The notes under the pieces were generated by a model. The model saw only the letters and a program-made list of their open reading frames with translations. It had not been told where the DNA came from and did not search any database. Made by a program: the position numbers and the translations under genes. From positions 47,455,777 through 47,519,776 of the forward strand of contig NC_065543.1 in NCBI RefSeq assembly GCF_932294415.1: DNA of 64,000 bases. Direction: 5' to 3'. The DNA is from Quercus robur. Its lineage: Eukaryota > Streptophyta > Magnoliopsida > Fagales > Fagaceae. The stretch's first letter is position 1; every line of letters starts with the position of its first letter. Positions 2,913 through 64,000 of the stretch are shown here, piece by piece.

Positions 2913-2943
<31 letters not shown>

Positions 2944-8414: not shown

Positions 8415-8482
8415 TGAAGTAGATAGCAAGATGGTGATGTTGATTTCTTTCTTTGAAGGAGAATGAGATGAGAGGCAGAGAG

Positions 8483-8500: not shown

Positions 8501-8505
8501 GAATT

Positions 8506-9457: not shown

Positions 9458-10492
9458 GCTACCAGTAAAGTTGTTCTCCCGCAACTGTAAAACCTCGAGC
9501 GCCGGCAGGTCTCCGATACAGTCCGGAATAGCTCCATGAAGCTTGTTGCGAAACAAGTTCAACAGCGTCATCTTCTTCAGCTGAGCAAACGAGGATGGAA
9601 TTTCACCCGTGAGCATGTTGATCGACAAGTCCATTAATTTCAAGCTCGCCAAATTCCCAAGCTCCACCGTCAAAGACCCCGAAAGCGCATTCACTTGCAA
9701 AAACAGAGTGTGGAGCTTCTGTAGCTTCCCAATCTCCGGTGGTATCTTTCCGGTTAACCCACAGTTTGCGGCGTCGATACGAACAAGCTCCGACAGGTTT
9801 CCGATCTCGGCGGGAATGTCTCCCTCGTAGGCATTGTATCCAAGGTAAAGCTCACGCAGGGTCGTCAAGTTTCCGATCTCGGCAGGTATAGTTCCGTTTA
9901 GTTCGTTGCCGGAAACGGCCAAATACTCAAGAAACTGCCATTTTCCGTACTGGGTCGGGATCTGACCGGTGAAATAGTTTCCGCCGAGATGCAAGTGGCG
10001 GAGGTTAGGCATTTCAACGACAGTCAGAGGCAACTCACCGGTCATGTAGTTGTTGTAGAGATCGAGGACTTGGAGGTTCTTGAGGGAAGCGAGTTGGGTT
10101 GGGAAAGTGCCGTTGAAAATGTTGTTGGAGAGGTTGAGGTAGCGGAGAGCCGAGAGAGAAGAGAGCTGCGGAGGAATGGGGCCGGAGAGTCGGTTAGAGG
10201 CGACGGTGAGGTTCGAAACGAAGCGGAGGTGGGCGAGGTCAGGGGAGAGAGTGCCGGAGAGGTTGAGACCGGAGAGGTCAAGAGATGTCACGTGACGGTG
10301 AGTGGTGTCGCTGCACGTGACGCCCCTCCACGTGCAGTGGTTGGTGGTGGCGTTCCATGATGAAAGGGCCGATTGTGGGTCGTCTATGAGGGACTTTGCC
10401 GAGAGAAGTGCTTTGTATTCTGGGATGTGGGCTGAGTGAGTTGTGTGGATTTGGAGGTGGAGGTGGAGGAGTAGCAAGAGGAGGAGCTGCAT
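9458..10492 (-). pseudogene. BAM/CLV1-like LRR receptor kinase, N-terminal part only
   Basis: From the ATG at 10492 (followed by a Leu/His-rich signal peptide) 345 residues are open. They contain the LRR N-terminal cap with CTWRGVTC and about 11 LRRs of the LRR-XI subclass. The closest match by eye is the BAM1-3/CLV1 group: LRELYLGYNAYEGDIPAEIGN and LHTLFLQVNALSGSL are its hallmarks. Such proteins are about 1000 residues and end in a membrane helix and kinase, sensing CLE peptides in meristems and anthers. Here the frame stops being LRR after ENNFTGS, exactly where the gypsy LTR begins, and then runs into LTR sequence. A Mutator-like element also sits about 160 bp upstream of the ATG. The rest of the gene may lie beyond the window start. 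Confidence 0.85.
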
Positions 10493-12240: not shown

Positions 12241-12304
<64 letters not shown>

Positions 12305-16520: not shown

Positions 16521-16754
16521 ATAGGGGAAAAAGAGTAGAAAATAAGAATCATGGAAATTTTAATAACATTAGTGCTGTTTAAATAGGATACAAGTTTCAT
16601 ATCAGTTAAATTCTTAGATTTTAAACTGTATAATTAGATACGCAATTGACCAAATATAACACAACACAGATGAGACACTTTAATACAAATAAATTACTTA
16701 ACTATAAACATATATTCACTGCAAAGAATCTCTGCAAAAATCTCAAATTTTTTT

Positions 16755-17335: not shown

Positions 17336-17379
17336 CATTGTACTTGAATCTATCATTATTTGTTTCATAGGGTACTTTT

Positions 17380-23900: not shown

Positions 23901-24661
23901 AATTTGTGTTCAAATTCAAGCTCCGAATCTGTACTTTCAAAAACATTCTACCGCATCTAAAAATTCCTTACCGTTCAAAAGTTATTGTCAAAACAGTGAA
24001 AGAAGGTCACATTTCAACACATTTTCTAAGCGAATACGGCTCGTGAATAAATTGCCACTAACGTATTTTTTACCCAAGATTTGATTTCAAGATTATTGAT
24101 CTCGCTGTATAGGAAAATTATTTCCAAGCCAAATTCATGAGCGAATCGTTAAACTACCATTTTCACGACCCTCCATTGGCACATAATTGGAATCTGTATT
24201 TCGGGTAACTTAGTGGGACTTATTAAAATGACAATAACTCTCTTGATTGCCATCGAAAAAAATACACAATTTGTGTTCAAATTTAAGCTCTGAATCTTTA
24301 CTTTCGAAAACATTCAGGCCACATCTAAAAATTCCATACCGTTCAGAAGTTATTGTCGAAAAAGAGAAGGAAGGTCACATTTCAACACATTTTCTCAGCG
24401 AATACGGCTCGTGAATAAATTGCCACAAACGTATTTTTTACCCAAGATTTGATTTCAAGATTATTGATCTCATAATATAGGAAAATTATTTCCAAGCCAA
24501 ATTCATGAGCAAATCATTAAACTTCCATTCTTAAGCCCCTCCATCGGCACATAATTGGTATCCGTATTTCGGATAACTCAGTGAGACTGATTCAAATGAC
24601 AATAACACTCTTCATTTCCATCGAAAAAATACAAAATTTGTGTTCAAATTCAAGCTCTGAA
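20985..24661. repeat. Satellite array, about 10 copies of a 370-bp monomer
   Basis: The marker GGTCACATTTCAACACAT recurs at about 21043, 21410, 21783, 22155, 22519, 22889, 23271, 23636, 24005 and 24375, spacing 364-382 bp. Other fixed landmarks per monomer are TTGATTTCAAGATTATTGAT, AACTTCCATTTTTACGCCCC and GTGGGACTGATTCAAATGAC. The short frames beginning at each TGGGACTGATT are artefacts of the monomer. The first copy is the most diverged. The array ends abruptly at 24661 inside an LRR gene. Confidence 0.92.
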
Positions 24662-26339
24662 AATTGCCAATGATGTAAGATTTATCAATTGCATAGGAAT
24701 GTCTCCTGTGAGCTTGTTTGAGGAGAGATCTAACCATTCAAGATTAGTTAAATTTCCAAATGATATAGGCATATGACCCATAAGATTATTGTGTGGAGAA
24801 TTTAGCCCTTTAAGTGATCCAAGCTTTCCAATTACCTCTGAAATTTCTCCTTTGAAACTATTGTTGGAAAAATCAATGGTTGTCAATAGAGTTAGTATTT
24901 TCACCACATCAATATAATTCCCTTTAATATCAATCATAATGGAATCTTGATAATAATCATCACCCATATGTTGCAATTTACCTTTCTCCATGTTCCCATT
25001 CATCATGGTTGTTAAATGCGTGAAAAAGTTTGATGGCAAATGACCATGGAATGCATTGTGAGAGAGGTCTATGATTCTCAAATTAGGGAATGAGAATTTA
25101 GTCTTGTGATTGTCTATGGCACCATGAAAGCCGTTTGATCGCAATAAGAGAACCTACAACTCCGAGATATTTTTCAACCAATAAGGGAATGTGTTGTTAA
25201 CCTTGTTAGTGGCAACGTCTAGAATTTCCAATTTTTTGCAATTGACTAATGAATGTGGTAATGGCCCTTCAAATTGATTGTCAATGATTTTAAGACTTCT
25301 AAAGTTATTGCACTTTTCAAATTTTGGGATGGTGCCATGAAAATTGTTATTTCGTAGATCCAAATTTTTGAGATCATTCATGTTTCCCAAACATGGAGGA
25401 ATCATACTAAAATGATTATGAGCGACGTCAAGGTAGTTGATGAAATTGAGATGGCAAAGATAGGAAGGGATTTCTCCACTTAAATTGTTCCTTGAGATTG
25501 AAAAGAAAACAATGTGCAGTGGAAGTACCTGAAGTGGCCAAGTACTTTCGATCAAATTATCCGAAAAATTGAGAAATCTTAAGTTCTTGCAATTCCCAAG
25601 CTCTGATGGAAAGTACCCACCAAATTGTTCTGCCAGAGCAAAATAATTCGAAGATTTTTAAGGTTTCCAAGACCTTTTTGTATTGAACCAGTGAACAAGT
25701 TTTGCGAGAGGGAGATATTTTGGAGGGCGATACAGTTGCCTATTTCAGGTGGGATTTGGTCGGAGAGGAGAGTTTTCCAGATTTTTATGGTTTCAAGCTT
25801 CTTGAGGAGACCAAGACTCGGAGGAAGGGAACCCAAGAAACTTGTTTTGGCTAGGCCTAACATGGTCAACTCAGTACAATTCCAGATTTCTCGGATATAA
25901 TGCCTCCAAGGTCTTGTTCTTACCGGCTCTTATCACTTGGAGGTTCTTCAAGTTGCCTATTGTATTGGGTATTTCTCCATTGAGTTGGTTCTCATAAAGA
26001 GTCAGCCATTTCAAGCTTGTGAGGTTGCCGATTTGAACCAAAATCGAGCCCTCTAGCTGGTTGGAGTTGAGGAGGATTTCTTGGAGCTTAAGCAAGTTGC
26101 AAATCTCAGATGGGATTTCACCGGTTAACGCATTGCCACTCAAGTCCAATTAATTCAGTTCATGTAGTAAGCAATCTCTCTTGGGACTGAACCCGTGAGG
26201 TTTGTTCTAGAAAGTACAACCTTGGTTAATGAAACCAATGAAGAGAGATTAGTTGGAACTATACCATATAAACTCATTGACTTAAGTACCTTAATTCCAA
26301 TTCCGCGAACTCCTTGTTGATGTTGCAAGTGATTCCAAG
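24662..26339 (-). pseudogene. Chimeric LRR receptor, copy 1, main part (pseudogene)
   Basis: Corresponds residue by residue to copy 2 (59642-62581). Reading from 26339 downward: LRRs 1-10 of LRR-XI (RGI-like) type, then directly the Cf-type receptor-like-protein LRRs (TWPLQVLP, FFSISRNNLSGEIPS) and the island. It ends in the LRR after LTSL, where satellite DNA replaces the rest, so cap, membrane helix and tail are missing. Lesions: frame changes near 26150 and 25890; a 1-base deletion near 25610 (GGTACTTTCCATCAGAG against GGTACCATTCCATCAGAG); loss of about ten LRRs between LRR10 and LRR20; and TAG for CGG at about 25154 (SEL*VLLLRSN). The 5' part is separated from 30777-30989 by a hAT-type insertion. 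Confidence 0.9.
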
Positions 26340-26509
26340 TAGGACTGATATTGGTTCAGGTTGGGTAGGGTTTACTGTGACCCGAAACCCGACCCGATAG
26401 AAATTGGGTTTAGCTGCCTGAAAACCGACCCGACCCGAAAAATCAGGTCTGTGATCCAGTCAGTTTTCTTAGTCTCAGGTCGAGTCTCGGGTTGATTTTT
26501 TTATTTTTT

Positions 26510-27716
26510 ATTGTTGCTTGTTAAATGGGAAGTTAAGGTAAGGGTTGCTATTGGGTCATCTCTATTTCAACTTTAGATTTTCCTATCCTTTTTTTTTTTT
26601 TGGTAAACTAGACTTTCCTATCCTTGGCTAAAGCAGGTCGTTTCTTTTGAATGAATTTGCTTATTCATAAAAAAATAAAATAAAATAAAAAATCATTCCT
26701 AGGTTTTAAGATTAGTATTGTCCTAAGCAAATTGGCAACAGCCAAAAACGAAATTTACATATCAATAAAATTGCATGGTCCTTCTCCAATTACCCATCAA
26801 GGAAATTGCAGTGTGACTTAACACATAACACTTCATTCAGTGTTCTTGCAAAATGTATCCTCTGTATCAACTACTATGAATGCAAAACCTTGAAGTTCAC
26901 CAAAATTGATGAAAACAAAGACCAAGTCTTACATTAACAATTATACACACACACACACCTAAAATAAACAATGTCTACTACAATGCCCTACTTATTTTTA
27001 TCAAAGTTCCAACTTTTGACATAAACTCCAAACTATCCAAATTTGTAAATATGGGTAATTGATTTTTCAAGCAAACTATCTATTGGTAAAAAGTCGGTGC
27101 ACATCAAGAATGTGATTGTGACCGAACAAAATCTTCTAGATTTTCCCACACATCCAACACTGCAGTTTTATCTTGGTGTTGCTTATTCTTGCTAATCTAC
27201 ACATTTGCAATATACATTCACATCAAATCTTAATAATAAATGGTCACAGACATTGATATACTCATATCCCATTCAACATAACTAAGATCAAAACAACCAA
27301 CCAGATCAAGAAAAACAGTCCTCACTGAGATAATCTTTACATTCCACTGCTTCACAGTCTTTGCAAACTCCAAATTGTCATCTTCAAACTGCATAAAAAA
27401 TCCTAAAACTGCAAACACTAATCCAACATATAACTCAATGTCAATTCCACAAAGAATACACGATTTCATTTGTTTATAGTTCTATTAGAGCAGTAGCAAC
27501 TATTACAACCAAGGAAAAAAAACCCAAAAAAAAAAAAAAAAAAAAAAACGGATCCAAGAAAATCACATTTGCAATCCACACATTCATACTTTAATTCAAT
27601 GAATCCAAGGAATTGCTTATGTGTTTCCTTATGTTTTTGTTTTTGACTTGCTCTCACCTTGTTCTGATTTCTTAGCTTAATATAAATCCGTATTTACCAA
27701 AAAAAAAAAAAATAGT
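26510..27716. other. hAT interior, left part, no gene recognised
   Basis: AT-rich. Short minus-strand frames (27469-27230 and 27657-27466) look unlike any family I know and include poly(A)-encoded Phe/Lys runs. An A run lies at 27524-27548. Confidence 0.45.
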
Positions 27717-28827
27717 TGAAAGTTCAAAAACGTGTACAAAAACACTTTTGAACGTTTAGACCCCCAAAAACCAACTTAACCAACACAAGCAATATGTCAA
27801 ACAACTAGTGTGCGGAAACTTAACATATGCTATAATATGAAATTGGTTAAACAACTATCTAAGCCATAACAAAATAAAACCACAGCAGATAATGTAAAGG
27901 CAGAGATAGAGAGGAAGGAAGATGCAAACACAAAGATAACACCCGATGTGTTATCGAAGAGGAAACCGAAGACCTCGGCGAAAAACCTCTCCGCCGCCCT
28001 CTAAGCGGTAATCAATCCACTAGAAAATACAGTTGGGATACAAGGACAGCAATAGACCCTCCAAGCCTAATCTACCCAGTGCACCTAAGCCCTCCAAGCT
28101 TCTTGCTCCAACGAGGTTGCGCCGAACCTTTTTCTTTTCTAGCTTCCCGGATTCCGCTACTAGACCATAGCATCAACCAATGAAGATTGGCTTCTTCCTA
28201 ACTGCTTCCCAGAACTCCAAACGACTGTCTCACAGAGATGATAATGGTGAGAACCAGGTTTGGTATAATGCCTCTCAAGGTTTTGACAATGGAGAGGAAG
28301 AGAGTGAGGGAATTTGATGAGACTCTAAGGTATAGATTGTGGGTGAAACAATCTGGTTTTTCTTTAGGGTTTCTCTCTCAAAATTCTCTCTGGAAGCCCT
28401 CTTTCAATTGTGGGTTAAAGGGGTATTTATACTGGAGTGGAGAGGAATGTGAAACGTCAGGTTTTGGCAAAACAGGGGTGGCTCGCGGCTTGACCTCGCG
28501 GCTTGACCAAGTCGCGAGATCCAGTCGCGAGTTAACCGTATGGCCAGTTGTCCTGTTTTGTCCTGTAGTGCTCTAGCTAGCATGACTGTTCATCTTCCAG
28601 CATGCTTGGCACGTGTGCAGCTTCAGGCGGCTTGCAGCCGCGAGTCCACCCGCGAGTCCCAGCCGCGACACTCTGTTTTCTTGCACACTCTTGAGCAAAC
28701 TTCACTCTATCTCACTCACTACCCTTACAACAAATCCACCTAAATACAGGGTTACTAAATGCTGAATTACAAGCAAATTTGGCACGGAATAAAGCCAATT
28801 AGATGGTTGAATAAATTCAACCTTACA
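27717..28827 (-). mobile_element. Solo LTR of a Ty1/copia-like element (1111 bp)
   Basis: Minus strand begins TGTAAGGTTGAATTTATTCA (28827) and ends GAACTTTCA (27717), TG...CA type, with a 5-bp target duplication ATAGT on both sides (27712-27716 and 28828-28832). A TATA box (AGTATAAATACC on the minus strand, about 28424-28435) and a leader follow LTR order. No internal region or second LTR adjoins it, so it is a recombination remnant. Assignment to copia rests on size and terminal sequence and is moderately secure. Confidence 0.8.
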
Positions 28828-29349
28828 ATAGTTCAAGCATTTTATCATGCAACATCCATTAGAAATGAAATAAATCAATAAAATGGAGCTCCAAACAGAG
28901 AATTAAGTCAAATAGATATACAATGGCAAGTTAGCAATACTATTAGTTATTGTTAGCTCCTAACCTCAAGAACAAACTATGAACCTCAACAATGCGATAA
29001 CAAACCAATACAGAATAGAGATAAGAAACAGTTCATTCATTCCCTTAAACAACTAGCACGCATGAAAAATAAAGGACCTTGTACAAAACCACAAATGCCC
29101 ATGTTAAATAACAAAAACGCCCATTATAGAAACTCAAACACCCAAATAGTCAGATTAGACAAAATGTTGAAAACTGGAAAAACAAAATCTAAACAGATGG
29201 TAAAAAGTAAGTTCACACACACCAAAATAGAATGCAAAACGCAGCCTAAATCAGAATCTCTAAATTGTAAACTACACAATGCAATCCCATTTTGCTAAAT
29301 CTTTAATCCAAACCAAACAAACATTTAAAGAAAAAAAATTACCTTTCAC

Positions 29350-29504
29350 TACTTATACACTGACACCCTCAACGCAGGAGTAGGACTCTTGATCGGCTCC
29401 AACAGATCTACAACACGATTAGATTCACGCCTCACAGTCACATCACTCAATTTGTAAGGCTCCGATACCCTTCCGTTTGAGTTCTCCGGCTGAGATAACC
29501 TCTC
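29350..29504 (-). other. Exon-like segment inside the hAT element
   Basis: Minus strand: acceptor TTTTTTTTTGCAG|GAG at 29505, then about 50 open codons (RLSQPENSNGRVSEPYKLSD, later RRESNRVVDLLEP) ending at TAG, with a possible donor AAAG|GTAAT just after. A good donor ACTAG|GTATG lies upstream at 30146/30145, and another exon-like piece near 30550-30505. Codon usage is gene-like and unlike the surroundings, suggesting a captured host gene fragment. The frame from the upstream piece does not join cleanly, so this may be untranslated or broken. Confidence 0.35.
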
Positions 29505-30776
29505 CTGCAATTTTTTTTTAGACAAACAAAAACATAAGGAAAAACATAATCAAAAACCCCAAGCAAAATAGATAAAAATGTTACCAAAACAAAGCACAGC
29601 AAAGATTAACCCACTAGTCTAGCAAAAAAGCTTAGTGGAACACAAAACAAAGATAAATTAACACATTCCCAAAAATTGCAAGTTTTCTTTTTTTATTAAC
29701 AAAAAAGAGAAAAAGGAAACAACCCAACAAGAAAAGCAAAAAACAAATGAAGTTTGCAGCCATTGGGATTGTAAAGGACAAACATTGAGCTACACAATTC
29801 CAGAGATATAAATTGTAAACCCCCCAAAAAAGGCCAAAACAAGAATGAAGAAAAGAGACATAAAATCACCAACACAAAATAAATGAATTAACCAAAACAT
29901 TTGAAGCTACACAAGAACATGAGAACAAACATGAATCATACATATTCCAAAGTTACACCAGCTAAAAGTGTTTTCAGAAGCACCCAGAACCAAATGTGAA
30001 GCACTTAACAGAGAAAATTCATAATTCCTAGTTTAAAAACCCAACTAGAAAAGCCCAAATAAAAACTGATAAAAAAATCTTATCTTTAGCAAAACCCAGA
30101 ACACCCATTGGAGTGAAGCATAGAGAAAACAAGAACTACACATACCTAGTAGCACTGTAGAACAGATCTGGCGGTTTGAAACTACAAAACTCCAACTGGG
30201 TTTTTGTTCTTGTTCAAAGAGAGAACAAAAAACTGCGGGAAAATCCAATAATGTGTATAATGAGTGAAGAAAGAGTAAACCCAAAAAGCAAATAAATAAA
30301 AAATTGAAACTTGAAGGCTTTAGCCGCAAACCCAGATAGAATATATGAAAAAAATTGAAACTTGAAGGCACTCAGATTCAAGTCATCCATAAGTACATAA
30401 ACCCATTATTGAATCAGGTTTAGACTATCACACACACAAACACAACAACACTATCCAAAATCTAAAACCAAACACAAAATGAGAATGATGACTTACACAG
30501 AGATAATTGAGGCCCTGAGGGAGGCAGAGAGCTGAGGGAGGCGGAGAGAACAAACAACAGAGTAGGGTTTTTTTCAAAAGAAAAAATCGAGTTCAGACTA
30601 GTGTACTTATATGACCCGATGACTGACTTGATACCAACCCAAACCCGAAAATAATCTGAAATTAAGACCCAAAACTCGACCTGAATATTCTCAGGCCCGC
30701 CCAAAACCTATCGGTTAGGGTCAGGTCGGGTCGGGTTTTTGGGTGGGCCGGGTCCTTGCTCAGTCCTAATTCCAAG

Positions 30777-30989
30777 CCACCCACATGGAGTTTCATCTGT
30801 TGGGTTCCAATTAGACAAGGCCTTAGTGGGTCCATTCAGGCTTTGCTTCCATGGAAGAAGGGCTTCACCTTGTGGATTAACTGCAAAAGCTACAAAAGGG
30901 TTCAAGAGGGGAAGGATGATTGTTAAGAAGGAGAAGAGGGTGATCCATGGATTTAGTTGAAGTGTAATGAGAGGGAGGAAAGTACACAA
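30777..30989 (-). pseudogene. Chimeric LRR receptor, copy 1, N-terminal part
   Basis: ATG at 30989. The signal peptide and LRR N-terminal cap match copy 2 closely (NPFVAFAVNPQGEALL, LSNWNPTDETPCGWLGI). The frame breaks after GWLGI, where the hAT element begins; the gene continues at 26339. The start region carries an extension (MCTFLPLITLQ) relative to copy 2, which starts MPLNPWNN. Confidence 0.88.
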
Positions 30990-31491
30990 AGGAAGAGGGG
31001 TTGGTTGTGTTTGAACTAAAAATGTTGGTTCAGTTGAGGCTAGGGAGAGACAATGAGAGGAACCAAATCATATATTGTGGGCTACAAGCTTGTAGTAACA
31101 ATATTTTAATTTCTCTATTTCGATTTAAATTCTAATCCAAGGATTGGTATGGCGGTTTGGCCCCCCAAAACGAAAAACCCAGACTTTCGCTTTTCACGTA
31201 AAAATGTTTTATAATGCATGTAATGATGCACAGAATACAAAAGAAAAAAAAAATCCACTCCATTTGATGGTTAATTGAATTTTATGTCACATTCTCTATA
31301 AAATATTCACTGTGAACCTTTTTCGAACAAGTTTAAATAAATCCGTTGGGTTTTCATTTTGATTTAATCATCTAACATTATTTCTCCTTGCTAGATGGAT
31401 GCTTCACGGTCCCATGGAACAATATTTTCATCATGATGATTACAAATTAGTATTATTTTTGTATAATGTGTAGATTAATAAAATATTGTAT

Positions 31492-31532
<41 letters not shown>

Positions 31533-40635: not shown

Positions 40636-41012
40636 AAACCCCGACCAGCCTCCGTATTTGTTTTTAGTTCAATGATTAACTAGTTTTTTTTTTTTTTCCC
40701 GAAAACTTTGTAGTTTTCTTGTAGTTGAACCTGTTGAACACGTATACGAAATTCTTTTCTTCCTCTTTCCTTTTGATTACATGTTAGTTGCCCTCGTCGA
40801 TGCTTACTACCGTTTATGATTTTTGAGCTAATTATCTTAACATGTATGAATGGTTGTGCATATGATATATTTAGGATCATGTTTCGGAATGCTAGCTCAC
40901 CCGCACCCATAGGGTATTGAACTCGTGTCTGAACCTATTTCAGTCGGGATATAGGCATCACCTGAGATGTCATGTGTGTTTTTAGGACCAACTTGGTGTC
41001 CAGATTTCCTTT
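40636..41012. other. 3' region of antisense gene and element leader
   Basis: T-rich tract at 40684-40698 and the presumed 3' UTR of the antisense gene. No gene on either strand. Confidence 0.45.
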
Positions 41013-41544
41013 AAGTAGTTGGTTTCCCCATAGGTTTAAGTCCGAGGACTATACAATACCTTGGTTCTGTCCAAAACTTAGATTTTTTAAGTAGTTGGTT
41101 TCCCCATAGGTTTGAGTCCGAGGACCATGCAATACCTTGGTTCTGTCCAAAACTTAGATTTTTTAAGTAGTTGGTTTCCCCATAGGTTTGAGTCCGAGGA
41201 CCATGCAATACCTTGGTTCTGTCCAAAACTTAGATTTTTTAAGTAGTTGGTTTCCCCATAGGTTTGAGTCCGAGGACCATGCAATACCTTGGTTCTGTCC
41301 AAAACTTAAATTTTTTAAGTAGTTGGTTTCCCCATAGGTTTGAGTCCGAAGATCATGCAATACCTTGGTTCTGTCCAAAACTTAGATTTTTTAAGTAGTT
41401 GGTTTCCCCATAGGTTTGAGTCCGAGGACCATGCAATACCTTGGTTCTGTCCAAAACTTAGATTTTTTATGTAGTTGGTTTCCCCATAGGTTTGAGTCCG
41501 AAGACCATGCAATACCTTGGTTCTGTCCAAAACTTAGATTTTTT
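41013..41544. repeat. 76-bp tandem repeat, 7 copies, inside the gypsy element
   Basis: AAGTAGTTGGTTTCCCCATA begins units at 41013, 41089, 41165, 41241, 41317, 41393 and 41469 at exactly 76 bp, with only a few substitutions. Because 76 is not a multiple of 3, the minus strand shows overlapping 71-codon frames that are artefacts. The same unit occurs six times in the related element at 55722-56185. Confidence 0.95.
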
Positions 41545-41752
41545 AAGTATGGAAAGGGTTAGCCCCTTGAGGGATTAGCCCCTCAATCAAGATGTGAGAC
41601 GTTGATCCACCGTGGAAAGCCCCTAAAACCGTCCGCGTTACTAACGCTTTGAAACGCAGCCCCTAGTGGAACTCTACGTTAGGACACGGTAGCGGGCTGC
41701 TGGAAGTAATAGGAGGACCTTTCGCTCCACCGCCTGGGCCAACGTACAAGCC

Positions 41753-45255: not shown

Positions 45256-48200
45256 TTATTTTATTACTGGAATGTCAGACACAAAAAAACGATAAATATC
45301 CGTAGGAACAGAATTCATCCAAACTAAAGTAGGAAAAGACAATCTCGCTCGTCTAGCCAACGCATGTGCTAAAACATTGCCATGCCGACGCGTATGAGAG
45401 AAAGAATAGTATTGGAACACACTGACTGAAGACATAATGTCTTGAACTAAATGACCCACAACTGGATGCTGAAAATTTTTCTTCTTTATAGCTGAAATAG
45501 ACTCTTCCGAATCCCCTTCAAAAATAACACCACTGAAACCACACTCACGGACAAACAGAGCAGCCCGCCTTGCTGCCATAGTTTCCAGAGCAACAATGGA
45601 TGAAGGCAGGGGAATTATTTCAGACAGAGCCGCCAAGACCTCACCCAGCGCATTACGCACCACCACACCAATTCCAGCAGCTCCCAGATCGTCGAAAACC
45701 GCTCCGTCGAAATTAGCTTTCAGCAGCGCTACATCAGGAGGCTTCCAGATGGCCTTCCGCGCCACCATTTTTGCTTCTGGTTTTGCACACAATTGTTGAA
45801 AATCCGTCAGCTGCTTCTGTGCCAGCTCCGGAATCTTCTCAAGGGGAGTAGCAACCTCATTAACTCGGATTTTGTTGCGCCGATTCCAGATAGACCAACA
45901 GATCATTATGAAACCTTCAGCTCCACGTGGATTCTGCAGCGCCAACCTGAAAAGATCAACAAAAAATAAATTTTGATTCGTTGCACTCCGCAACTCATCA
46001 AAGTTAGTACCCCATGCCTCCTTCACCTTCTCACACCCCCATAGAGCATGAAACACTGTCTCAGGCCCCCTGTTACACCCCGTGCAGCTGCTGGACAGAA
46101 CCACTCTTCGCCTAGCCAAATTCACCATCGTGGGAAGGGACTCCGAGCAAGCCCGCCAAGAAAAAGTCTTAACTTTGCTGGGCACCTTCATTCTCCATAA
46201 ACCAGACCACAACCTCCGGTTTGCCTCATTTGATGATCCTGACGGTGAACCAGAGAGCTCCTTGGCACACACCAGTTGGTACCCAAGCTTCACCGAATAC
46301 TGGCCATCCTTAGTTTTTGGCCAAATCAACATGTCTTCTTGTGGGATAAGACAAAGAGGGATGGATTTTATTTTCTGCACCTCAAATGGCAGAAAAACTC
46401 GCTCCAACAGATACACATTCCACCAACCCGTATCAGCATCTATAATGTCTGAAACTCTCGAATCAGCAGATAACAAAGAGGGGGGAGAGATCACTTTGCC
46501 TGACCCATCACCAGGCAGCCAACAATCATTGTAAATCCGGACAGATTGGCCATTCCCCACTCTATATCTAGCACCTTCAGCAATTATGTAGCGTGCCTTA
46601 AGGATACTCCGCCATGCATATGACCCCGTTTTGACATGTGCTGAAAAAATGTCCCCCGAAGGAAAAAACTTTGCCTTAAAAACCCAATAAAAGAGAGATT
46701 TTTGGTCATGAACCAGCCGCCAAACTTGCTTAGCTAACATGGCTTCGTTGAACTTCCTAAGTTCCTTGAAACCCATTCCGCCTTCATTTTTTGGCATACA
46801 CAAAGACTCCCAATTTTTCCAATGAATCTTTCTTCTCTCTCCACGTTGACCCCAAAAAATTTTTTTTATCATAACCTCAATTTCATGGCAAAGGTTCACC
46901 GGTAAAAGAAAACAACTCATAGCAAAAGATGGGATTGCTTGCACAATAGCTTTCAATAACACCTCCCTACCGGCTTGTGACAAAAGTTTCTCCTTCCACC
47001 CTTGAAGTTTCCCCCAAATCCTCTCCTTAATATAGATAAAACTCTCCTTTTTCTTCCTACCCACCATAGCCAGCAATCCTAGGTACTTTTCATACTCCTT
47101 TACCTCCAGCACCCCTAGGTAGTTCATCAAATCTAATTTGGTGCTCTCAGGGACAGATTTACCAAAAAAAAGATTTGTTTTTGAGCCATTTATTTTTTGC
47201 CCGGATGCTCTCTCATATAGGGATAACGCCACTTGGATTGCTTGCACATCACCCATCCTTGCCCGACAAAAGATCAAGCTATCATCGGCAAAGAATAAGT
47301 GTGAGATTTGTGGGCCATTCTTACAAAGCGAGAAGCCCCTTAAATCACCCCTAGCCACAGCTTTATTGAGCAACCCATTTAATCCTTCCGAGCACAACAA
47401 GAAAAGATAAGGGGATAAGGGGTCGCCTTGACGAATCCCCCTAGTAGGCTTAATTAATCCTCGAGGGAACCCATTGATCAAGAAAGAGTAAGACACGGAT
47501 TTGATTGTAACCATAACCATATCAACCCATCTCTCATGGAAACCCATCTTTCGCATCAACTTCTCCAAAAAAATCCACTCAACCCTATCGTACGCCTTAC
47601 TCATATCCAATTTCATAGCCATAAACCCCTCCTTCCCCGTTTTTTTTATCTTCATATGATGTAATGTTTCAAAAGCTACCAAAATATTATCCGAGATAGC
47701 CTTATCGGATTGAAAGGCACTCTGGGATTCTGATACAACATATGGCAACAGAGTTTTCAAACGGTTAGCCAACACCTTAGAAATTAACTTATACAGAATG
47801 TTACATAAAGATATAGGCCTAAAATCAGAAACACTTTCGGGATTTTTTATTTTGGGGATAAGGGTGATATGAGTATGATTAAGGCTAGCTGGGATAGAAC
47901 CTGAATTAAGGCAGGAAAGAACAGCACAAGACACGTCATCACCAATGGAGTCCCAATAGTGTTGATAGAAAATGGGGGGCATGCCATCCGGGCCTGGCGC
48001 TTTCAGAGGTGCCATCTGCTTAAGAGCCACATCCACCTCTTTCTTAACAAAAGGTTTCACCAAATCCGCATTCATAGAATCTGAGACAACCTGCGGAATA
48101 TTCTCCAATACCTCCTCCAAATGAGAAGGATTTGAAGTTGTGAAAAGCTCACTGTAATAGTCAATAAATAATTGAGCAATTTGGTCCTCCCCATCAACCC

Positions 48201-49350
48201 ACTCCCCATTTTTGTTTCTTAAGCGTTTGATACAATTTTTCCTATACCTCTGAGAAGCTTTACCATGGAAGTAACGTGTATTTTGATCCCCTTCTTTAAG
48301 CCAATGCAACTTGGAACGCTGCTGCCAAAGCTTTTCTTCCTTAATAAGAAGTTCCCTTAATTCAACCTTCAAGGCATGTAACCGGTCCCCATTTCCACTT
48401 CTCACCGCCTCCCCCTCCGCCACTTTGATTTGTTTTTTTTTTTCCACAAGAGCCCGAGATATATTACCAAAAGATTCCTTACTCCATTTTTTTAAATGCC
48501 TCTGACAATTTTCCACGTTAGTCTCAACCACCGACATCGGGTTGGGAGAGAAAAAAGGGCTCTCCCAAGCGGCTTCCACCGTAGAACGACACGCCTCATC
48601 ATTCAACCAAACTTGTTCAAACCTCCATGGTCTTTGATTTCGGATTTGAAACCCCTCCATATAAATACTTAAGGGTTTATGGTCCGAGAAGACCGTGTCA
48701 AGATGAGTTACTGAGTATCCCGGAAACATAGAAATCCATTCTTGATTAGCCACGGCCCTATCAAGACGCTCCCAAACCATAACACCTCCTGCCAACCTTT
48801 TACACCAAGTGAATTTTTGGCCACTAAACCCCAAGTCGGCAAAACCACATTCATCCAATGTGTCCCGGAATTCCCGCATCTGCACCTCCGGTCTTGCTCT
48901 ACCACCTTTCTTTTCATGGGACCTTAAAATCTCATTAAAATCACCCGAACAAAGCCAAGGCAAGGAAGAATTTCGGTTCAGATTTTTTAGGACAGCCCAA
49001 GACTCATGATGTTTGTGAGTCTCGGGATTACCGTAGAAACCCGTGAACCTCCAAGAGTTTTCCTTCCCTGAATTAATCACAGCATCAATATGATTTATTG
49101 AAGAAGACACTACCTTAACGTCAAAATCAGACCTCCACAGAAGAGCAAGACCGCCCCCCTGACTTATTTTTGAAACAACAAACTTCTGATCACAAACAAA
49201 ATTCCGCAAAAGAAACTTCAGCCTATCTTCTGTTAGCCATGTCTCGGCCAAGAACACAACCGCAGGATCTTGTGCCCGGACCAAATTCCCGAGCTCTCGA
49301 ATTGTCTGTGGGTTCCCAAGCCCACGACAATTCCAAACTAGGACACTCAT
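45256..49350 (-). CDS. LINE ORF2: endonuclease, reverse transcriptase, RNase H
   Basis: 1364 residues, no stop. Order: apurinic-type endonuclease (residues 1-230; WNCRGLGN at 6, GDFNE, SDHKPLSIYM near 225); reverse transcriptase (about 490-770; LDMSKAYDRVEW near 577, RQGDPLSPYLF near 640, catalytic FADDSLIF near 688); zinc-binding RT region (about 1040-1100; CTGCNRGPETVFHALWGC); and a C-terminal plant-type RNase H (about 1205-1340; NFDGAVFDD, GDSEES, HALARRA). It nicks DNA and copies the LINE RNA in place. The start ATG overlaps the ORF1 stop (ATGA, 49347-49350), pointing to termination-reinitiation. All catalytic motifs that I can recognise are kept. Confidence 0.93.
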   Translation of the reverse strand: MSVLVWNCRGLGNPQTIRELGNLVRAQDPAVVFLAETWLTEDRLKFLLRNFVCDQKFVVSKISQGGGLALLWRSDFDVKVVSSSINHIDAVINSGKENSWRFTGFYGNPETHKHHESWAVLKNLNRNSSLPWLCSGDFNEILRSHEKKGGRARPEVQMREFRDTLDECGFADLGFSGQKFTWCKRLAGGVMVWERLDRAVANQEWISMFPGYSVTHLDTVFSDHKPLSIYMEGFQIRNQRPWRFEQVWLNDEACRSTVEAAWESPFFSPNPMSVVETNVENCQRHLKKWSKESFGNISRALVEKKKQIKVAEGEAVRSGNGDRLHALKVELRELLIKEEKLWQQRSKLHWLKEGDQNTRYFHGKASQRYRKNCIKRLRNKNGEWVDGEDQIAQLFIDYYSELFTTSNPSHLEEVLENIPQVVSDSMNADLVKPFVKKEVDVALKQMAPLKAPGPDGMPPIFYQHYWDSIGDDVSCAVLSCLNSGSIPASLNHTHITLIPKIKNPESVSDFRPISLCNILYKLISKVLANRLKTLLPYVVSESQSAFQSDKAISDNILVAFETLHHMKIKKTGKEGFMAMKLDMSKAYDRVEWIFLEKLMRKMGFHERWVDMVMVTIKSVSYSFLINGFPRGLIKPTRGIRQGDPLSPYLFLLCSEGLNGLLNKAVARGDLRGFSLCKNGPQISHLFFADDSLIFCRARMGDVQAIQVALSLYERASGQKINGSKTNLFFGKSVPESTKLDLMNYLGVLEVKEYEKYLGLLAMVGRKKKESFIYIKERIWGKLQGWKEKLLSQAGREVLLKAIVQAIPSFAMSCFLLPVNLCHEIEVMIKKIFWGQRGERRKIHWKNWESLCMPKNEGGMGFKELRKFNEAMLAKQVWRLVHDQKSLFYWVFKAKFFPSGDIFSAHVKTGSYAWRSILKARYIIAEGARYRVGNGQSVRIYNDCWLPGDGSGKVISPPSLLSADSRVSDIIDADTGWWNVYLLERVFLPFEVQKIKSIPLCLIPQEDMLIWPKTKDGQYSVKLGYQLVCAKELSGSPSGSSNEANRRLWSGLWRMKVPSKVKTFSWRACSESLPTMVNLARRRVVLSSSCTGCNRGPETVFHALWGCEKVKEAWGTNFDELRSATNQNLFFVDLFRLALQNPRGAEGFIMICWSIWNRRNKIRVNEVATPLEKIPELAQKQLTDFQQLCAKPEAKMVARKAIWKPPDVALLKANFDGAVFDDLGAAGIGVVVRNALGEVLAALSEIIPLPSSIVALETMAARRAALFVRECGFSGVIFEGDSEESISAIKKKNFQHPVVGHLVQDIMSSVSVFQYYSFSHTRRHGNVLAHALARRARLSFPTLVWMNSVPTDIYRFFVSDIPVIK

Positions 49351-50816
49351 GGCTCCTGGCAGGACTGAATATCAGTCTCTGCCAATTGAGTAATACTTCC
49401 TGACTTCGCCTGAGAAACCAAACGTTTTTTGTTAGGTAACTCATTTGATTCATGGAGTAGAGAAAAGGGCCTTTTTAAGGATGAGTTTTGGACTTGCGAA
49501 GAGGCTGCCCCCTGAAGTGGGCGAGAAAATCTTTTCCAGGTACCTGAATATGGAACAGAGGTATCGGTCAAAACAGGGACGTCAGTGAGGGTCGAATTCT
49601 GTAACTGGAAAGAGCTGGGCTGCTTAAGTGAGTCACGTGCTTGGGGCGTGGGGCAAGGATCACTACGGACAGAACAATTGCCTTGAGACTCGTTGCTTAC
49701 ATCCACGTGGCTAAGGGAATCAAATTTGGAAATTTCAGCGTCAATCTCCTTAAGAGTTTCCGAGAATAAATCCCTGTCATTACTCTGTTTCTGACCCGTT
49801 GGAATTTCCAAAACTGGCTGGGATACTGCTACCGTAATTTTTGGAATAGAGCTATTAAGTTTGTCATGCGTTACTCCATCCATCCCAGCAGATGAGTTTG
49901 GATTTGAAACGGATACTGCATTAACTAACTCCTCAACATGCGCCTTTCCCTTAACTGAATGCTCCATCGGCGCCTCTGAATTAATTCCCACCTCCATAGC
50001 CGCTGCATCCACCGGACACTGTGACAGATTATCCGGCTTCGAGAACCGGTTCTCATAATACCCCGGAACGTAGATAACGTCTCTCCCTGCAGAGGTGTAC
50101 GGAGCGGCTCTTAAACATGGCCCAAATTGTTGATTTTCAGTCTTGAGAGTACCCTTACTGCTAATCCATAATTCACAATTTTTTTCATCATGGCTTAGAC
50201 CACCACACCAGTAACACAAATTCGGAAGGCGCTCATACTTGAAGGAAACCCAAGACTTGCCCCCTCCTTCAAGGGTAATAACACGGCCCCGGCATAGCGG
50301 TAAGTTAATATCAAGAGTAACTCGAACTCTCATGAACTGACCCCCATCATCATCGACTGCCCCAGAAGATTTTTGCACTTCACCGATAATATCACATAAG
50401 CATTCAGCCATATGCTTCGTCATATACCTGTATGGGATGTCATGAACCTGCACCCAAAACGTAACCTTATTAAAGATTAATTCACGCACCGGGGATTCAC
50501 CATCATACCTTTGAATAACAACTAGGTATTTGTCGAAGCTCCAAGGCTGATTTTTGATGATACGGTCTACATCAGGGAGGTTGTCAAAGACAAAAAGACA
50601 CTTATGTTCGCCCAAGCGCCTAACTTTAAAGCCATTTGTTGATCTCCATAGCTGCTTAAATGTTCTAGCCACCGCCTCCATTATCAAGAAGCGTGGAGTA
50701 AGAAATTTGGCAGCCAACATATACTCCCCAGTACGATGGTCCGCCCGCATAGTGTACCCAGTATTTTCTTTTTCGGACAAAGACAAGTTATCCCAACTAG
50801 CTGCTAGGTCTTCCAT
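49347..50816 (-). CDS. LINE ORF1: DUF4283 and zinc-knuckle RNA-binding protein
   Basis: 489 residues from the ATG at 50816 (MEDLAASWDNLSLSEKE). The frame is open 67 codons further up to 51017, but that part is hydrophobic and low-complexity and looks like 5' UTR. Residues about 35-180 form the DUF4283 domain (MEAVARTFKQLW, QPWSFDKYLVVIQRY, FWVQVHDIPYRYM); residues about 200-217 are a CCHC knuckle (CYWCGGLSHDEKNC). The C-terminal 250 residues are polar and probably disordered. It should coat the LINE RNA. It overlaps ORF2 by 4 bp. Confidence 0.9.
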   Translation of the reverse strand: MEDLAASWDNLSLSEKENTGYTMRADHRTGEYMLAAKFLTPRFLIMEAVARTFKQLWRSTNGFKVRRLGEHKCLFVFDNLPDVDRIIKNQPWSFDKYLVVIQRYDGESPVRELIFNKVTFWVQVHDIPYRYMTKHMAECLCDIIGEVQKSSGAVDDDGGQFMRVRVTLDINLPLCRGRVITLEGGGKSWVSFKYERLPNLCYWCGGLSHDEKNCELWISSKGTLKTENQQFGPCLRAAPYTSAGRDVIYVPGYYENRFSKPDNLSQCPVDAAAMEVGINSEAPMEHSVKGKAHVEELVNAVSVSNPNSSAGMDGVTHDKLNSSIPKITVAVSQPVLEIPTGQKQSNDRDLFSETLKEIDAEISKFDSLSHVDVSNESQGNCSVRSDPCPTPQARDSLKQPSSFQLQNSTLTDVPVLTDTSVPYSGTWKRFSRPLQGAASSQVQNSSLKRPFSLLHESNELPNKKRLVSQAKSGSITQLAETDIQSCQEP

Positions 50817-51080
50817 ATCAAAGAACAAGTTGAAGAAGAAAAAAATGAAAGAAAATTGTTTCCCAATACCCCAGAAAAAGACACCCACTAGTCTCGGCAC
50901 ACCAGTAGTGAGACGAGAATGGAGACAAATAGAAGTCAATAACAAAACAACACAACCAGATAAAACAGTAGAATAAGAAAACAAACACTCCTTACTTACG
51001 TAAGGGACAAAACACATCTACTGCCTAGAGGGAGAATGGGACCATTCTTCCAGAGAGACAGAGAGAATCTGACACTAGTT

Positions 51081-55715: not shown

Positions 55716-55721
55716 CTCCTT

Positions 55722-56185
55722 AAGTAGTTAGTTTCCCCATAGGTTTGAGTCCGAGGACCATGCAATACCTTGGTTCTGTCCAAAACTTAGATTTATTAAG
55801 TAGTTGGTTTCCCCATAGGTTTGAGTCCGAGGACCATGCAATACCTTGGTTCTGTCCAAAACTTAGATTTATGAAGTAGTTGATTTCCCCATAGGTTTGA
55901 GTCCAAGGACCATGCAATACCTTGGTTCTGTCCAAAACTTAGATTTATTAAGTAGTTGGTTTCCCCATAGGTTTGAGTCCGAGGACCATGCAATACCTTG
56001 GTTCTGTCCAAAATTTAGATTTATTAAGTAGTTGGTTTTCCCATAGGTTTAAGTCCGAGGACCATGCAATACCCTGATTCTGTCCAAAACTTAGATTTCT
56101 TTTAAGTAGTTGGTTTCCCCATAGGTTTGAATCCGAGGACCATGCAATACCCTGGTTTTGTCCAAAACTTAAATTTCTTTTAAGT
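55722..56185. repeat. 76-bp tandem repeat, 6 copies
   Basis: Units start near 55722, 55798, 55874, 55950, 56026 and 56103. The unit is the same as at 41013-41544, ending TTAGATTTATTAAG instead of TTAGATTTTTTAAG in most copies. Confidence 0.93.
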
Positions 56186-59641: not shown

Positions 59642-62581
59642 TCAACTAATTCTTCCATGAACATTCTTCTTGGATCTTCGCACCTTGTTGCGTCGTTCTC
59701 CATAAATAATAGTCAAGAGATATTTTGATTTTTCACTTGAGAACACAAGATATCCCATACCTAATCCGAACATGAAACCACATCCATACCCCAACAATAC
59801 AACTTTCCAATGAAATCCATTTGCAAACCCAACATCATCTTCTTGGATGGTTGGTGATGGTGGTGGTTGTTGTCCCTCATCATTGCCACAAGTTTTTGTC
59901 AATGGAAATCCACATAAACCCAAGTTTTCACTGTAAGAAGCATTTGTAAATGTATTGAATTGTTTACCTTGAGGTATCAATCCCACAAGATGGTTTTTTG
60001 AGAGATTTAAAATTTCCAATGATGTAAGATCTGTCAATTGTATAGGAATGTTGCCTGTGAGCTTGTTTGAGGAAAGATCTAACCATTCAAGATTAGTTAA
60101 ATTTCCGAATAATATAGGTATATGACCCATAAGATTATTGTGTGAAAAATTTAGCCCTTTGAGTGATCCAAGCTTTCCAATTACTTTTGGAATTTCTCCT
60201 TTGAAACTATTATTGGAAAAATCAATAGTTTTCAATAGAGTTAGTATTTTCCCCATGTCAATATAATTCCCTTTAATATCAATTGTAACATCAATTATTA
60301 CAGAATCTTAATCATCACCCATATAATAATTAGCATAATCCATCTCTCTTTTGAAAACAAAATAATAATCATCACTCATATATTGCAATCCATCATTATC
60401 CATGTCCCCATTTATCATGGCTGATAAATATTTGAAAAGATTTGATGGCAAATGACCATGGAACATATTGTGAGAGAGGTCTATAATTCTCAAATTAGAA
60501 AATGAGAATTTAGTCTTGTGATTGCCTATGGAACCATGAAAGTTGTTTGATCGCAATAAGAGAACCCGCAACTCTGGAAGATTTACCAACCAATGAGGGA
60601 ATGTGTCGTTAAGCTTGTTGTTAGCGACGTCTAGAATTTTTAATTTCTTGCAATTGACCAATGAACGTGGCAATGGCCCTTCTAATTGATTGTTGGCAAG
60701 TTTAAGATTTCTCAAGTTACTGCACTTTACAAATTTTGGGATGGTGTCATGAAGATTGTTATTTTGCAGTCCCAAATTTATGATATCACTCATATTTCCC
60801 AAGCATGGAGGAATCATACTAAAATGGTTATGAGAGAAATCAAGGTAGTTAACAAAATTGAGATTACAAATCGAGGAAGAGATCTCTCCACTTAAATTGT
60901 TCCTTGAGATTGAAAAGAAATCAATGTGCCGTGGAAGTACATGAAGTGGCCAAGTACCTTCAATAAAATTATTGGAAAAATCAACAAACTGCAACAAAAC
61001 AAGGCGGCTTAACTTACCAAGAAAGTTTCCAGTGATCAAATTAGAATGCAAATTGAGATACTCCAAGTTTCGGCAGCCAAAGATCTCGGCAGGTACATTT
61101 CCCGAAATTCGATTCAAACTGAGATCCAAGATATCTAGATTTTCCAAGTTCCCAATCTCTCTCGGTATTGGCCCTGTAAGCTTGTTATCTCCAACTCTGA
61201 ACCGAATTAGAGACGAACAGTTTCCGATATTTTCCGGTATTTCACCCGATAAATTGTTGGAGGAAAGATAGATTATTTTCATTTTCTTGAACTGAAAGAT
61301 TTCCTGGGGAATATACCCAGTCAAACCATTAGAAGCCGAATCAAGAATTTCAAGATTCTGACATTTGAATATTGAGGATGGAATGGGTCCCACTAACTCG
61401 TTTTCATACAAGAAAAGTTGTTGAAGTTTCGTAAGGTTTCCGACTTCGGATGGTATCGTACCGGCGACACTGTTTTCGCCTAAGTCGATCCAAGTGAGCT
61501 CCTTACAGTTTTCTAATTGTGCTGGAATTTCGCCCGATATTTGATTCATTTGGAGTGCGAGATCTTGCATAGCCGATAAGTTTCCGAAACTTTGCAGAAT
61601 GTTTCCGGATAACGAGTTCCACGAAACATCGAGAAGTGTAAACTTATTGCAATTCCCAAGCTCTGATGGAATGGTACCCACCAAGCTGTTCCCCCAGAGA
61701 TAAAGAATTCGGAGGTTTTTGAGGTTTCCGATACTTTTCGGTATTGAACCGGTGAGCGAGTTTTGATAGAGGAAGATATCTTGGAGGGCGGTACAGTTGC
61801 CAATTTCAGGTGGGATTTGGCCGGAGAGGAGAGTTTTCCAGATGCTTATGGTTCCAAGCTTCTTGAGGAGGCCAAGACTCGGAGGAAGGAAACCCGAGAC
61901 GCTTGTTTTGGCTAGGCCTGACATGGTCAACTCGGTACAATTCCCGATTTCTCGGGGTATAAGGCCTCTGATATTCTTGTTCCCACCGACTCTTATCACC
62001 TGGAGGTTCTTCAAGTTGCCAATTGAACTGGGTATTTCTCCACTGAGCTGGTTATCATAAGGAGTCACCCATTTCAAGCTTGTGAGGTTGCCGATTTGAG
62101 CCAGAATTGAGCCTTCTAGCTGGTTTGAGTTGAGGTGGATTTCTTGGAGCTTAAGTAAGTTGCAAATCTCAGATGGGATTTCACCGGTTAACGCATTGTC
62201 ACTCAAGTCCAAGTAATTCAGTTCATGTAGTATAGCAACCTCTCTTGGGATTGAACCCGTGAGGTTTGTACTAGAAAGTACAACCTTGGTTAATGAAACC
62301 AATGAAGTGAGATTAGTTGGAACTGTACCATATAAACTCAAGTCTCTTAACTTCAATTCCACGACCTCCTTGTTGATGTTGCAAGTGATTCCAAGCCACC
62401 CACATGGAGTTTCATCTGTTGGGTTCCAATTAGACAAGGCCACAGTGGGTCCATTTAGGCTTTGCTTCCATGAAAGAAGAGCTTCGCCTTGTGGATTAAC
62501 TGCGAAAGCTACAAAAGGGTTCAAGAGGGGAAGGATGATTGTTAAGAAGGAGAAGAGGTTGTTCCATGGATTTAGAGGCAT
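59642..62581 (-). pseudogene. Chimeric LRR receptor, copy 2 (one in-frame stop)
   Basis: One frame of 979 codons from the ATG at 62581, broken only by TAA at 60308-60310 (codon 758). Signal peptide (1-27); LRR cap with CGWLGITC; LRRs 1-19 of the RGI/RCH1-like LRR-XI receptor-kinase type (VGGNKNIRGLIPREIGNC, LSGQIPPEIGNCTALQ). From about residue 540 (TWPLHVLPRHIDFFSISRNN) it is of Cf-type receptor-like-protein character: LRRs 20-27, island (about 700-775), LRRs 28-31, the cap GKQFNTF...NLGLCGFPL, an acidic stretch (QEDDVGF), a GxxxG membrane helix (VVLLGYGCGFMFGLGMGYLV) and a short basic tail without kinase. With the stop, the product would be a secreted 757-residue LRR protein. I list it as a pseudogene, but the lesion is small and could be an assembly error or an allele. 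A role in ligand sensing with a co-receptor kinase is inferred from the families. Confidence 0.85.
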
Positions 62582-64000
62582 TACAGCTATGCTACAAAAG
62601 TGGAATGAGAGGGAGGAAAGTATGCGAAGAAAGAGGCGTTGGTTGTGTTTGAACTATAAAAAAAATAAAAATGAGAGGAACCAAGTCATATATTGTGCGA
62701 TACAAGCTTGTAGTAACAATATTTTAATTTCTCTATTTCGATTTAAATTCTAATCCAAGGATTGGGTACGGCGGTTTGGCCCCCCAAAATGAAAAACCAA
62801 GACTTCGCCTTTTCGCGTAAAAATGTTTTATCATGCATGTAATGATGCACAGAATACAAAAGAAAAAAAAAATCCACTCCATTTGATGGTTTATGTAATT
62901 TTACGTCACATTCTCTATAAAATATTCACCGTGAACCTTCTTCAAACAAGTTTAAATAAATCCATTGGGTTTTCATTTTAATTTAATTATCTAACATTAT
63001 TTCTCCTTGCTAGATGGATGATTCACAGTCCCATGGAACACTATTTTCATTATGATGATTACAAATTAGTATTATTTTTGTATAATGTGCAGATTAATAA
63101 AATATTGTATGCAAAAAAAAAAAAATAATAATAAAAAATATAATTGAAAATGAACGATAAAATACATGGTAAAAATGAAAAATTACTTTATGTTACATAG
63201 AGAAATGAAATTATGTAAGACTGAGTTTTATCATCACAACCTAAAAAGTATAATGGATTATTAAAATAATCTAAATAAATAATAAAAATTTTAATTTTTT
63301 TTGCACTTTTGGTAATACTAGTTTGGGTTGCAGTGCAAGGCACGTGCTGCACCTTAAGCAAGAAAAATAAGATAATATTTTTTTAGAAGAAGTATGAAAT
63401 CATGTACTCAAATTTAGTATAGTTATTTACCATTGAATATCTATTTAATATAATAATTTCTTAGATCCTATTTTACTAAAAGTGATATCTACTCACGAAA
63501 AAATTCTACTAAGAATGATAATGAATGTCATCATCTTCCAATAATAAACAATTAAGTTTTGATAAGACATTACCACAATATTTAAAATTTCATAATGAAT
63601 GATATATGCTATAATTGAAACTTTTCATCAAATTAAATACCTACAACCATCTACAATGAATATTTTGTTATTCATATTTCCTAATTTATCATCTTATTCT
63701 ATAAGCGTAATTACGATGTTTAACTTATTTAATTTGTAATGAACACCCTTTTAAGCAAGGAAAAAAAGGACATGTCATTGAAGTTTTCATTAGATAAACT
63801 TATAAATCTAGAAGATTTAAACCTCTAGTAAATTAGTGTTCTCTAGGTGGCAAATAGAGACCATACATCACCATTCTTATTTTCCAAGTATTACCACCAC
63901 ATAACACTCAGAACACATGAATAAATTTTTGGGACATTTAAGACATTAATTGCACAACAAAATTTTCTAGGAGTCATAAGATTTCTTTAAAGTTTAACGA
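62582..64000. repeat. Upstream flank of LRR copy 2, duplicated at 30.99-32.85 kb
   Basis: Promoter-side DNA of the gene (minus strand reads upward from 62581). It is nearly the same as the copy-1 flank, without the MITE-like insert. No TATA box could be placed with certainty. The duplication continues to the window end. Confidence 0.85.

Follow-up and report, generated by a model that had tools for sequence, protein, structure and literature searches.

A young tandem family of oak receptor-like proteins that probably carry ectodomains borrowed from hormone receptors

The oak (Quercus robur) DNA analysed here, a window of 64,000 nucleotides (C39:47455777-47519776), lies within a cluster of nine loci that we read, at a probability of roughly 0.65, as a young family of tandemly arranged RLP-type receptors, probably of an immune kind, with ectodomains borrowed from hormone receptors, which would have arisen through a crossover internal to the LRRs. 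This reading is based on what is observed in the genes themselves, namely the fusion of two receptor types, the join common to the loci, the frames that remain uninterrupted, the loss of the RGF anchors, and a constrained LRR scaffold combined with an excess of change on the concave face. If it is true, a route to new plant cell-surface receptors would exist in which a developmental peptide sensor is moved onto a kinase-less immune chassis, repeatedly and at one locus.

The copy referred to here as chimera A (Table 1) is translated from the minus strand, from window position 62581 to 59642, a span that the preliminary description had placed correctly while missing the strand. That description had also supposed one continuous frame, which is not the case, given that an in-frame TAA at 60310-60308 takes the place of codon 758 and divides the frame into 757 and 221 codons. 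The LRR map of A comprises 20 LRRs of RGI type and seven of RLP type, followed by the island (about 62 residues), four LRRs and a cap, with the 24-residue LRR register unbroken across the join. After the cap follow the acidic juxtamembrane stretch (net -5 over 24 residues), the helix with three GxxxG steps and the short tail that had been recognised from the start. Neither piece of A has a kinase match in Pfam, no membrane helix lies upstream of the stop, and the search of Rfam gave no match.

Table 1. Features of chimera A and of related loci in the window (window positions; all on the minus strand)
Feature	Position	Strand	Basis
Start codon and signal-peptide-like hydrophobic N-terminus, residues ~1-27	62501..62581	-	hydropathy windows from residues 8-12 >1.6; translation
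LRRNT_2 cap, residues 29-68	62378..62497	-	Pfam PF08263, E 1.2e-12
LRR-XI (RGI-type) part, LRRs 1-20, residues 72-542	60956..62368	-	RGFR1 5hyx collinear, 503 bits; 79% to L009; LRR map
RxGG motif R197-V-G-G200, kept in A	61982..61993	-	sequence; motif role from PMC11534595
RxR motif R460-F-R462, kept in A	61196..61204	-	sequence; site assigned via RGFR1 alignment; role from PMC6749341
Fusion point, codons 542/543, common to nine loci	60955..60956	-	nine-locus join alignment with L009; DNA identity to L009 stops at 60956
RLP part C1, residues 543-719, with the LRRs N-terminal of the island	60425..60955	-	65% to RLP L035; RXEG1 7drb_C 4-210 = 594-799
Island domain, ~62 residues, directly N-terminal of last four LRRs	60239..60424	-	LRR map
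In-frame TAA, codon 758, within the island	60308..60310	-	translation
C3 region, last four LRRs, residues 782-877	59951..60238	-	LRR map
Transmembrane helix, three GxxxG steps in succession, directly preceded by an acidic stretch (net -5/24 residues)	59744..59803	-	sequence
Short basic cytoplasmic tail and terminal stop, without kinase	59642..59743	-	translation; Pfam
Copy B, a further, dead instance of the fusion, including its 5' flank	24660..31381	-	coding homology 30962-24660
4.43-kb hAT-like insertion in copy B	26340..30768	-	terminal inverted repeats; target duplication of 8 bp
5' part (BAM/CLV1-like ectodomain) of a BAM-RGI-RLP chimera	9460..10492	-	97% DNA identity to L013

A is an interrupted member of the chimera family. 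An intron excising its stop was considered and not adopted: 38 in-frame GT-AG pairs of 60-400 nt would remove the stop, many such pairs are expected in AT-rich DNA, and three other copies (L010, L011 and L013) as well as the RLP L035 are open here without one. In a simulation of neutral stops, a single stop is slightly less than predicted when the drift of A is set at half of the coding divergence between A and B (P 0.026), but not when it is set at half of the flank divergence (P 0.28).

Searched separately, the two halves of A fall into different families, as had been anticipated. RGFR1 (At4g26540, 5hyx) is collinear with residues 60-545 as one domain of 503 bits, with 251 of 478 residues identical, and the match stops at residue 545 although the RGFR1 chain runs further, which bears out the proposed architecture, LRR-XI-like in its first half and of Cf-type RLP kind in its second. 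In pairwise comparison the N half is 78.6% identical to the LRR-XI kinase L009 and 29% to L035. The kinase L009, at C39 47.340-47.343 Mb, on the same strand and about 173 kb away, is the best N-half match outside the chimeras (79% over residues 1-540, and likewise 79% for residues 28-542 against this linked RGI-type kinase), the next match outside the cluster being on C37 at 52%. It combines an LRR-XI-type ectodomain with a Pfam Pkinase match of 106 bits, and its listed frame ends within the kinase, at a presumed intron.

The aligned C pieces of A, on the other hand, are 65.2% and 72.4% identical to L035 vs 32-33% to L009, the highest value for the second piece being 49% (92 residues of common LRRs). 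L035, one of the nearest relatives of the RLP half outside the cluster, on C4, is a protein of 1006 aa with an N-terminus that is RLP-like by eye and the same C-terminal end as the chimeras. RXEG1 (7drb) is collinear with the C half (query 4-210 = 594-799; query 15-137 = 810-932) and is the only Cf-type RLP recognised among the listed solved structures, where many-LRR kinases rank higher by summed score in both searches. In a search with the read-through C half, summed LRR scores masked any more specific signal, and phmmer with the island alone gave a single weak, chance-like match, so that neither was informative. Single scans of bacterial-genome and viral collections for relatives of these plant sequences returned 39 and 3 pattern-matching stretches, respectively, none of them confirmed.

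The search of the 786-Mb assembly for related fusions, which the preliminary description had proposed to seek in other trees, found nine loci with the RLP end in this same genome, three of them uninterrupted, at C39 47.358-47.566 Mb (about 208 kb) and all on the minus strand. For the RLP half there are at least nine matches at 73-100%, all in the cluster, followed by matches of no more than 66%, the nearest on C4, among the best 150 of 4093 candidates scored. All nine loci have the same join, and the kinase L009 departs from them exactly there; given this, a single fusion event most likely preceded the tandem expansion. An independent fusion of A and copy B was considered and rejected, as the upstream join seen in B is an exact loss of 648 nt, or nine LRRs, and the fusion point itself is common to both.

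The switch falls where it had first been placed, the DNA identity of A to L009 ending at 60956|60955, inside an LRR motif common to both parental types (LQ-x-x-D-x-x-x-N-L-[IL]-E-G) that is accompanied by a short, nearly identical run of DNA. Given the shared motif and the near-identical DNA, a homeologous crossover would be the simplest origin of the fusion. Such a crossover, within one LRR unit, may have joined the first 20 RGI-type LRRs to the membrane-proximal half of a Cf-type RLP, and the fused gene would then have multiplied in tandem beside L009.

Three copies retain uninterrupted frames, L010 (1049 aa), L011 (895 aa) and L013 (916 aa), each with an island of 52-61 residues followed by four LRRs, a juxtamembrane stretch of net -5 and a GxxxG helix; none of the three has a Pfam kinase match, and their signal peptides were judged by eye only. 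The number of LRRs varies among them: L010 (C39:47359.7-47361.5 kb) carries 72 extra residues, or three LRRs, in its RGI part, apparently an in-register duplication, and L011 has fewer LRRs and an irregular LRR gap. The remaining six of the nine loci, A among them, are broken, with stops, frame breaks or missing parts in H (L014), L012, L015 and B.

Of the other loci, one is contained in the window at 24660-31381 and one reaches into it with a 5' part at 9460-10492; the preliminary description had not linked them to A. The former, copy B, has frameshifts and stops in addition to its 648-nt loss, and its 3' end is cut at a 367-bp tandem array, about ten repeats of which (21017-24661) adjoin the truncated end at 24660. 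The longest frame seen in the hAT-like element inserted in B is 124 aa.

The divergence between A and B is uneven: windows of the 5' flank differ by 1-7%, the one that spans the start codon by 15%, the opening third of the gene by 5-13% and the stretch 61789-60206 by 13-18%, after which the value is 7%. This unevenness may be taken as a sign of mosaic ancestry. The 5' flank of A (62582-63998) is about 95% identical to that of B (30963-32831), and the coding blocks are 85-93% identical, so that either the coding part may have diverged faster than the flank or the ancestry may be mosaic.

A second exchange may have taken place in some copies, in which the RGI N-terminus would have been swapped for a different one. 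The N-terminus of L013 is an ectodomain of presumed BAM/CLV1 type, and it meets A-like DNA at RGI LRR 14; its paralogue in the window matches LRR-RLKs in general. The 3' part of this paralogue, G7, lies outside the window at about C39:47454223-47452422, beyond an LTR retrotransposon, and is a 618-codon open frame with no internal stop, which enters the RGI part at the same residues as L013, after one more BAM-like LRR (by eye). A similar BAM remnant is found in L015/L029, and the BAM-RGI-RLP architecture is thus present in three of the nine loci.

The retrotransposon that splits the BAM-fragment/G7 locus is about 11 kb long, from about window 9457 to about C39:47454224, and its 5-bp target duplication and ends were read by eye. 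Its LTRs are identical at 527 of 527 compared bases, which indicates a very young insertion. The portion in the window (1 to about 9457) holds a gag-like frame at 6606-8606 and, inside the element, a 942-codon plant mobile domain frame at 2890-5718.

A Mutator-like element with long, internally repeated inverted-repeat arms occupies window positions 10677-18496 and contains remnants of a MULE transposase (13178-14173) and a SWIM domain (12475-12948). About 185 bp separate its nearest arm from the downstream start codon of the BAM-like gene, for which this arm could act as a promoter source.

Among the uninterrupted copies, which differ by a dS of about 0.11-0.16 in their common parts, omega ranges from 0.34 to 0.58 over the LRR parts. 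The RLP part gives 0.53 for L010-L011 (z 2.29), 0.41 for L010-L013 (z 2.90) and 0.44 for L011-L013 (z 3.17), and the RGI part of L010-L011 gives 0.58 (z 2.48); sub-regions are weaker, at z 1.79-2.38 (L010-L011: RLP C1 z 1.83, C3-tail z 1.79). Between these copies the juxtamembrane-TM-tail has an omega of about 1 to 1.5, i.e., no constraint, with just two synonymous changes per pair.

When the xxLxLxx sites of the LRRs, which form the concave face, are set against the remaining LRR residues, the RGI part of L010-L011 has a pN/pS of 0.95 at concave sites vs 0.37 elsewhere, and non-synonymous change is 4.8 times denser at the former (Fisher p 0.001). In RLP C1 the concave excess gives p 0.068 (L010-L011), 0.008 (L011-L013) and 0.013 (L010-L013), with 0-1.3 synonymous concave changes per pair and scaffold pN/pS of 0.34, 0.27 and 0.22, respectively, the scaffold of uninterrupted pairs lying at about 0.2-0.4 in general; in these tests fractional counts were rounded, the pairs are not independent, and the p values are uncorrected for several tests. 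The four C3 LRRs show 0-3 concave replacements per pair. Given that the kinase L009 also shows a concave excess against the chimeras, of 3.0-3.7-fold, the excess is a feature of the receptor type and not of the fusion alone. The A-B control, which has one dead member, gives an excess of 1.88-fold (p 0.16), and the omega of A is 0.72 (RGI) and 0.38 (RLP) against L010, 0.44 and 0.51 against L011, and 0.73 (RLP) against L013, the values of 0.72 and 0.73 pointing to weak constraint. The uninterrupted copies look as if their LRR framework had been kept by selection, with the sensing face free to change. Gene conversion with functional relatives as donors could produce a similar pattern of constraint.

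According to published descriptions, RGF is recognised chiefly through RxGG (PMC11534595, in part), and RxR contacts the last residue of RGF1 (PMC6749341, in part). The two anchors read RAGG/RFR in L009 and RVGG/RFR in A, RVGF/WFE in L010, RVGM/WFN in L011 and RVDG/WFE in H, while RxGG is RAGG in L012 and RAGK in B, the RxR site is QFR in L015 and RFR in G7, and L013 combines an RFR at this site with the absence of an RxGG equivalent. The peptide-sensing surface that had been proposed is thus retained in A as far as RxGG and RxR are concerned and has lost both in L010 and L011. As these are the two uninterrupted RGI-type chimeras, RGF is probably not their ligand.

In RLPs, the island and C3 recruit BAK1/SERK, the C3 LRRs being those that bind SERKs in RXEG1, and the acidic GxxxG end recruits a SOBIR1-type kinase; by the Cf-type ID+4LRR definition, the island has 30-90 residues and the LRRs that follow it number exactly four (PMC10834447). 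By analogy, the uninterrupted copies, which are presumably expressed, would most likely act as receptors of the RLP type. A putative ligand, probably no longer RGF, would be bound at the concave face of the borrowed LRRs, the island and the last four LRRs would recruit a SERK/BAK1-type co-receptor, and the acidic, GxxxG-rich end would pair with a SOBIR1-type kinase.

The chimeras resemble Cf-type RLPs such as RXEG1 and L035 in their LRRs, the island with four LRRs, the acidic juxtamembrane stretch, the GxxxG helix and the short tail, and differ in that the RLP's own N-terminal LRRs have been replaced. They resemble RGFR1/RGI3 and L009 in a collinear N half, yet lack the RGI LRRs beyond the 20th and the kinase, with the anchors lost in the uninterrupted RGI-type copies. 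A precedent is found in RFO2/RLP2 of Arabidopsis, a kinase-less RLP with the ectodomain of the sulfated-peptide receptor PSY1R, at 74 or 80% identity in the LRRs (PMC3662643, PMC7318236, both in part), and with an unrelated RLP-type end, which has been proposed as an immunity decoy (PMC3662643, in part). The likeness, in that a peptide-hormone RLK has lent its ectodomain to an RLP end, is one of architecture and does not imply homology. PSY1R belongs to LRR-X, a group that already has an island and four-LRR end like that of RLPs, whereas here the donors are LRR-XI (RGI-type and, presumably, BAM-like), the join sits inside the array of LRRs, and the nine loci carry ectodomains of two types. The engineered EFR-Cf-9, in which a Cf end carries the ectodomain of an RLK, uses SOBIR1 and BAK1 for signalling (PMC6637901, in part); it is a laboratory construct of the EFR (LRR-XII) ectodomain and the Cf-9 endodomain, unlike the chimeras, in which the join is natural, lies inside LRR 20 and retains the RLP's own island and C3. 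A decoy or new immune receptor, as the preliminary description had imagined, would fit both the selection pattern and the RFO2 precedent; for A itself, with its interrupted frame, the idea is not supported.

For the oak genome, large tandem RLK expansions are reported, 19 of the 24 expanded paralogue groups being under positive selection (PMC6086335, in part). LRR-RLK fusion genes are described as recent, infrequent and probably mostly soon lost (PMC7318236, in part), which fits the six broken loci. No earlier description of LRR-XI/RLP fusions was found in literature titles and the starts of abstracts, which is weak evidence, subscription papers and preprints being outside this scope.

The cluster may also be viewed as neutral recombination debris, i.e., tandem, non-functional LRR fusions in which three frames are still open by chance. 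This is unlikely but deserves serious weight, given the two-thirds of loci that are broken, the near-neutral overall omega of A-B (0.88), the unconstrained TM-tail, and the sites at which A and B differ, of which 20 have retained the RGFR1 residue in A, 13 in B and 21 in neither, with no clear difference. It would leave unexplained, however, the low omega of the uninterrupted pairs over the LRR parts, their scaffold pN/pS combined with the concave excess, and three open frames of 895-1049 codons. An assembly artefact that joined a kinase gene to an RLP gene scarcely merits belief and is already contradicted, for although tandem clusters are difficult to assemble, the join recurs in nine loci with distinct sequences (by dS among the uninterrupted copies) and different lesions.

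The retention of anchors bears on two further alternatives. The chimeras might still sense RGF-type peptides as dominant-negative or alternative RGF receptors, given both anchors in A, RxGG in L012, and RxR in L013 and G7, but this is improbable in view of the altered residues at both sites in L010 and L011 and of the BAM-like N-terminus of L013. It is less probable still that A is a secreted, soluble protein of 757 residues that traps a peptide: its signal-peptide-like start, its 20 RGI LRRs with RxGG and RxR, and the lack of a membrane helix before the stop would suit such a role, but about 670 nt of former coding sequence would become a 3' UTR, and a long 3' UTR after an early stop favours mRNA decay. 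Moreover, L010, L011 and L013 are open across the stop region, and A carries changes at scaffold positions that are the same in B as in RGFR1 (174 P, 221 S).

The reading of a tandem family of RLP-type receptors may be extended, tentatively and at somewhat less than even odds, to a modular receptor-making locus, in which one RLP end would have captured RGI-type and then BAM/CLV1-type ectodomains through repeated in-register LRR recombination, and in which decoy-like immune receptors, having shed the residues for hormone binding, would now diversify their ligand face. Given the linked kinase, the common join, the uninterrupted and freshly broken copies and the two ectodomain types, the evolutionary steps are directly testable, as is the possibility that such decoys are driven by pathogens which mimic or exploit growth peptides.

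Elsewhere in the window, arrays of a 76-bp unit are found about 14 kb apart, at 41010-41549 (97% internal match) and 55720-56176 (93%), each near further common duplicated sequence (36.7-37.4, 41.8-42.5, 53.2-53.9 and 56.4-57.1 kb). A LINE on the minus strand, at 45256-51017, contains a 556-aa frame with DUF4283 and a zinc knuckle, and a 1371-aa frame with endonuclease, reverse transcriptase and RNase H-like domains.
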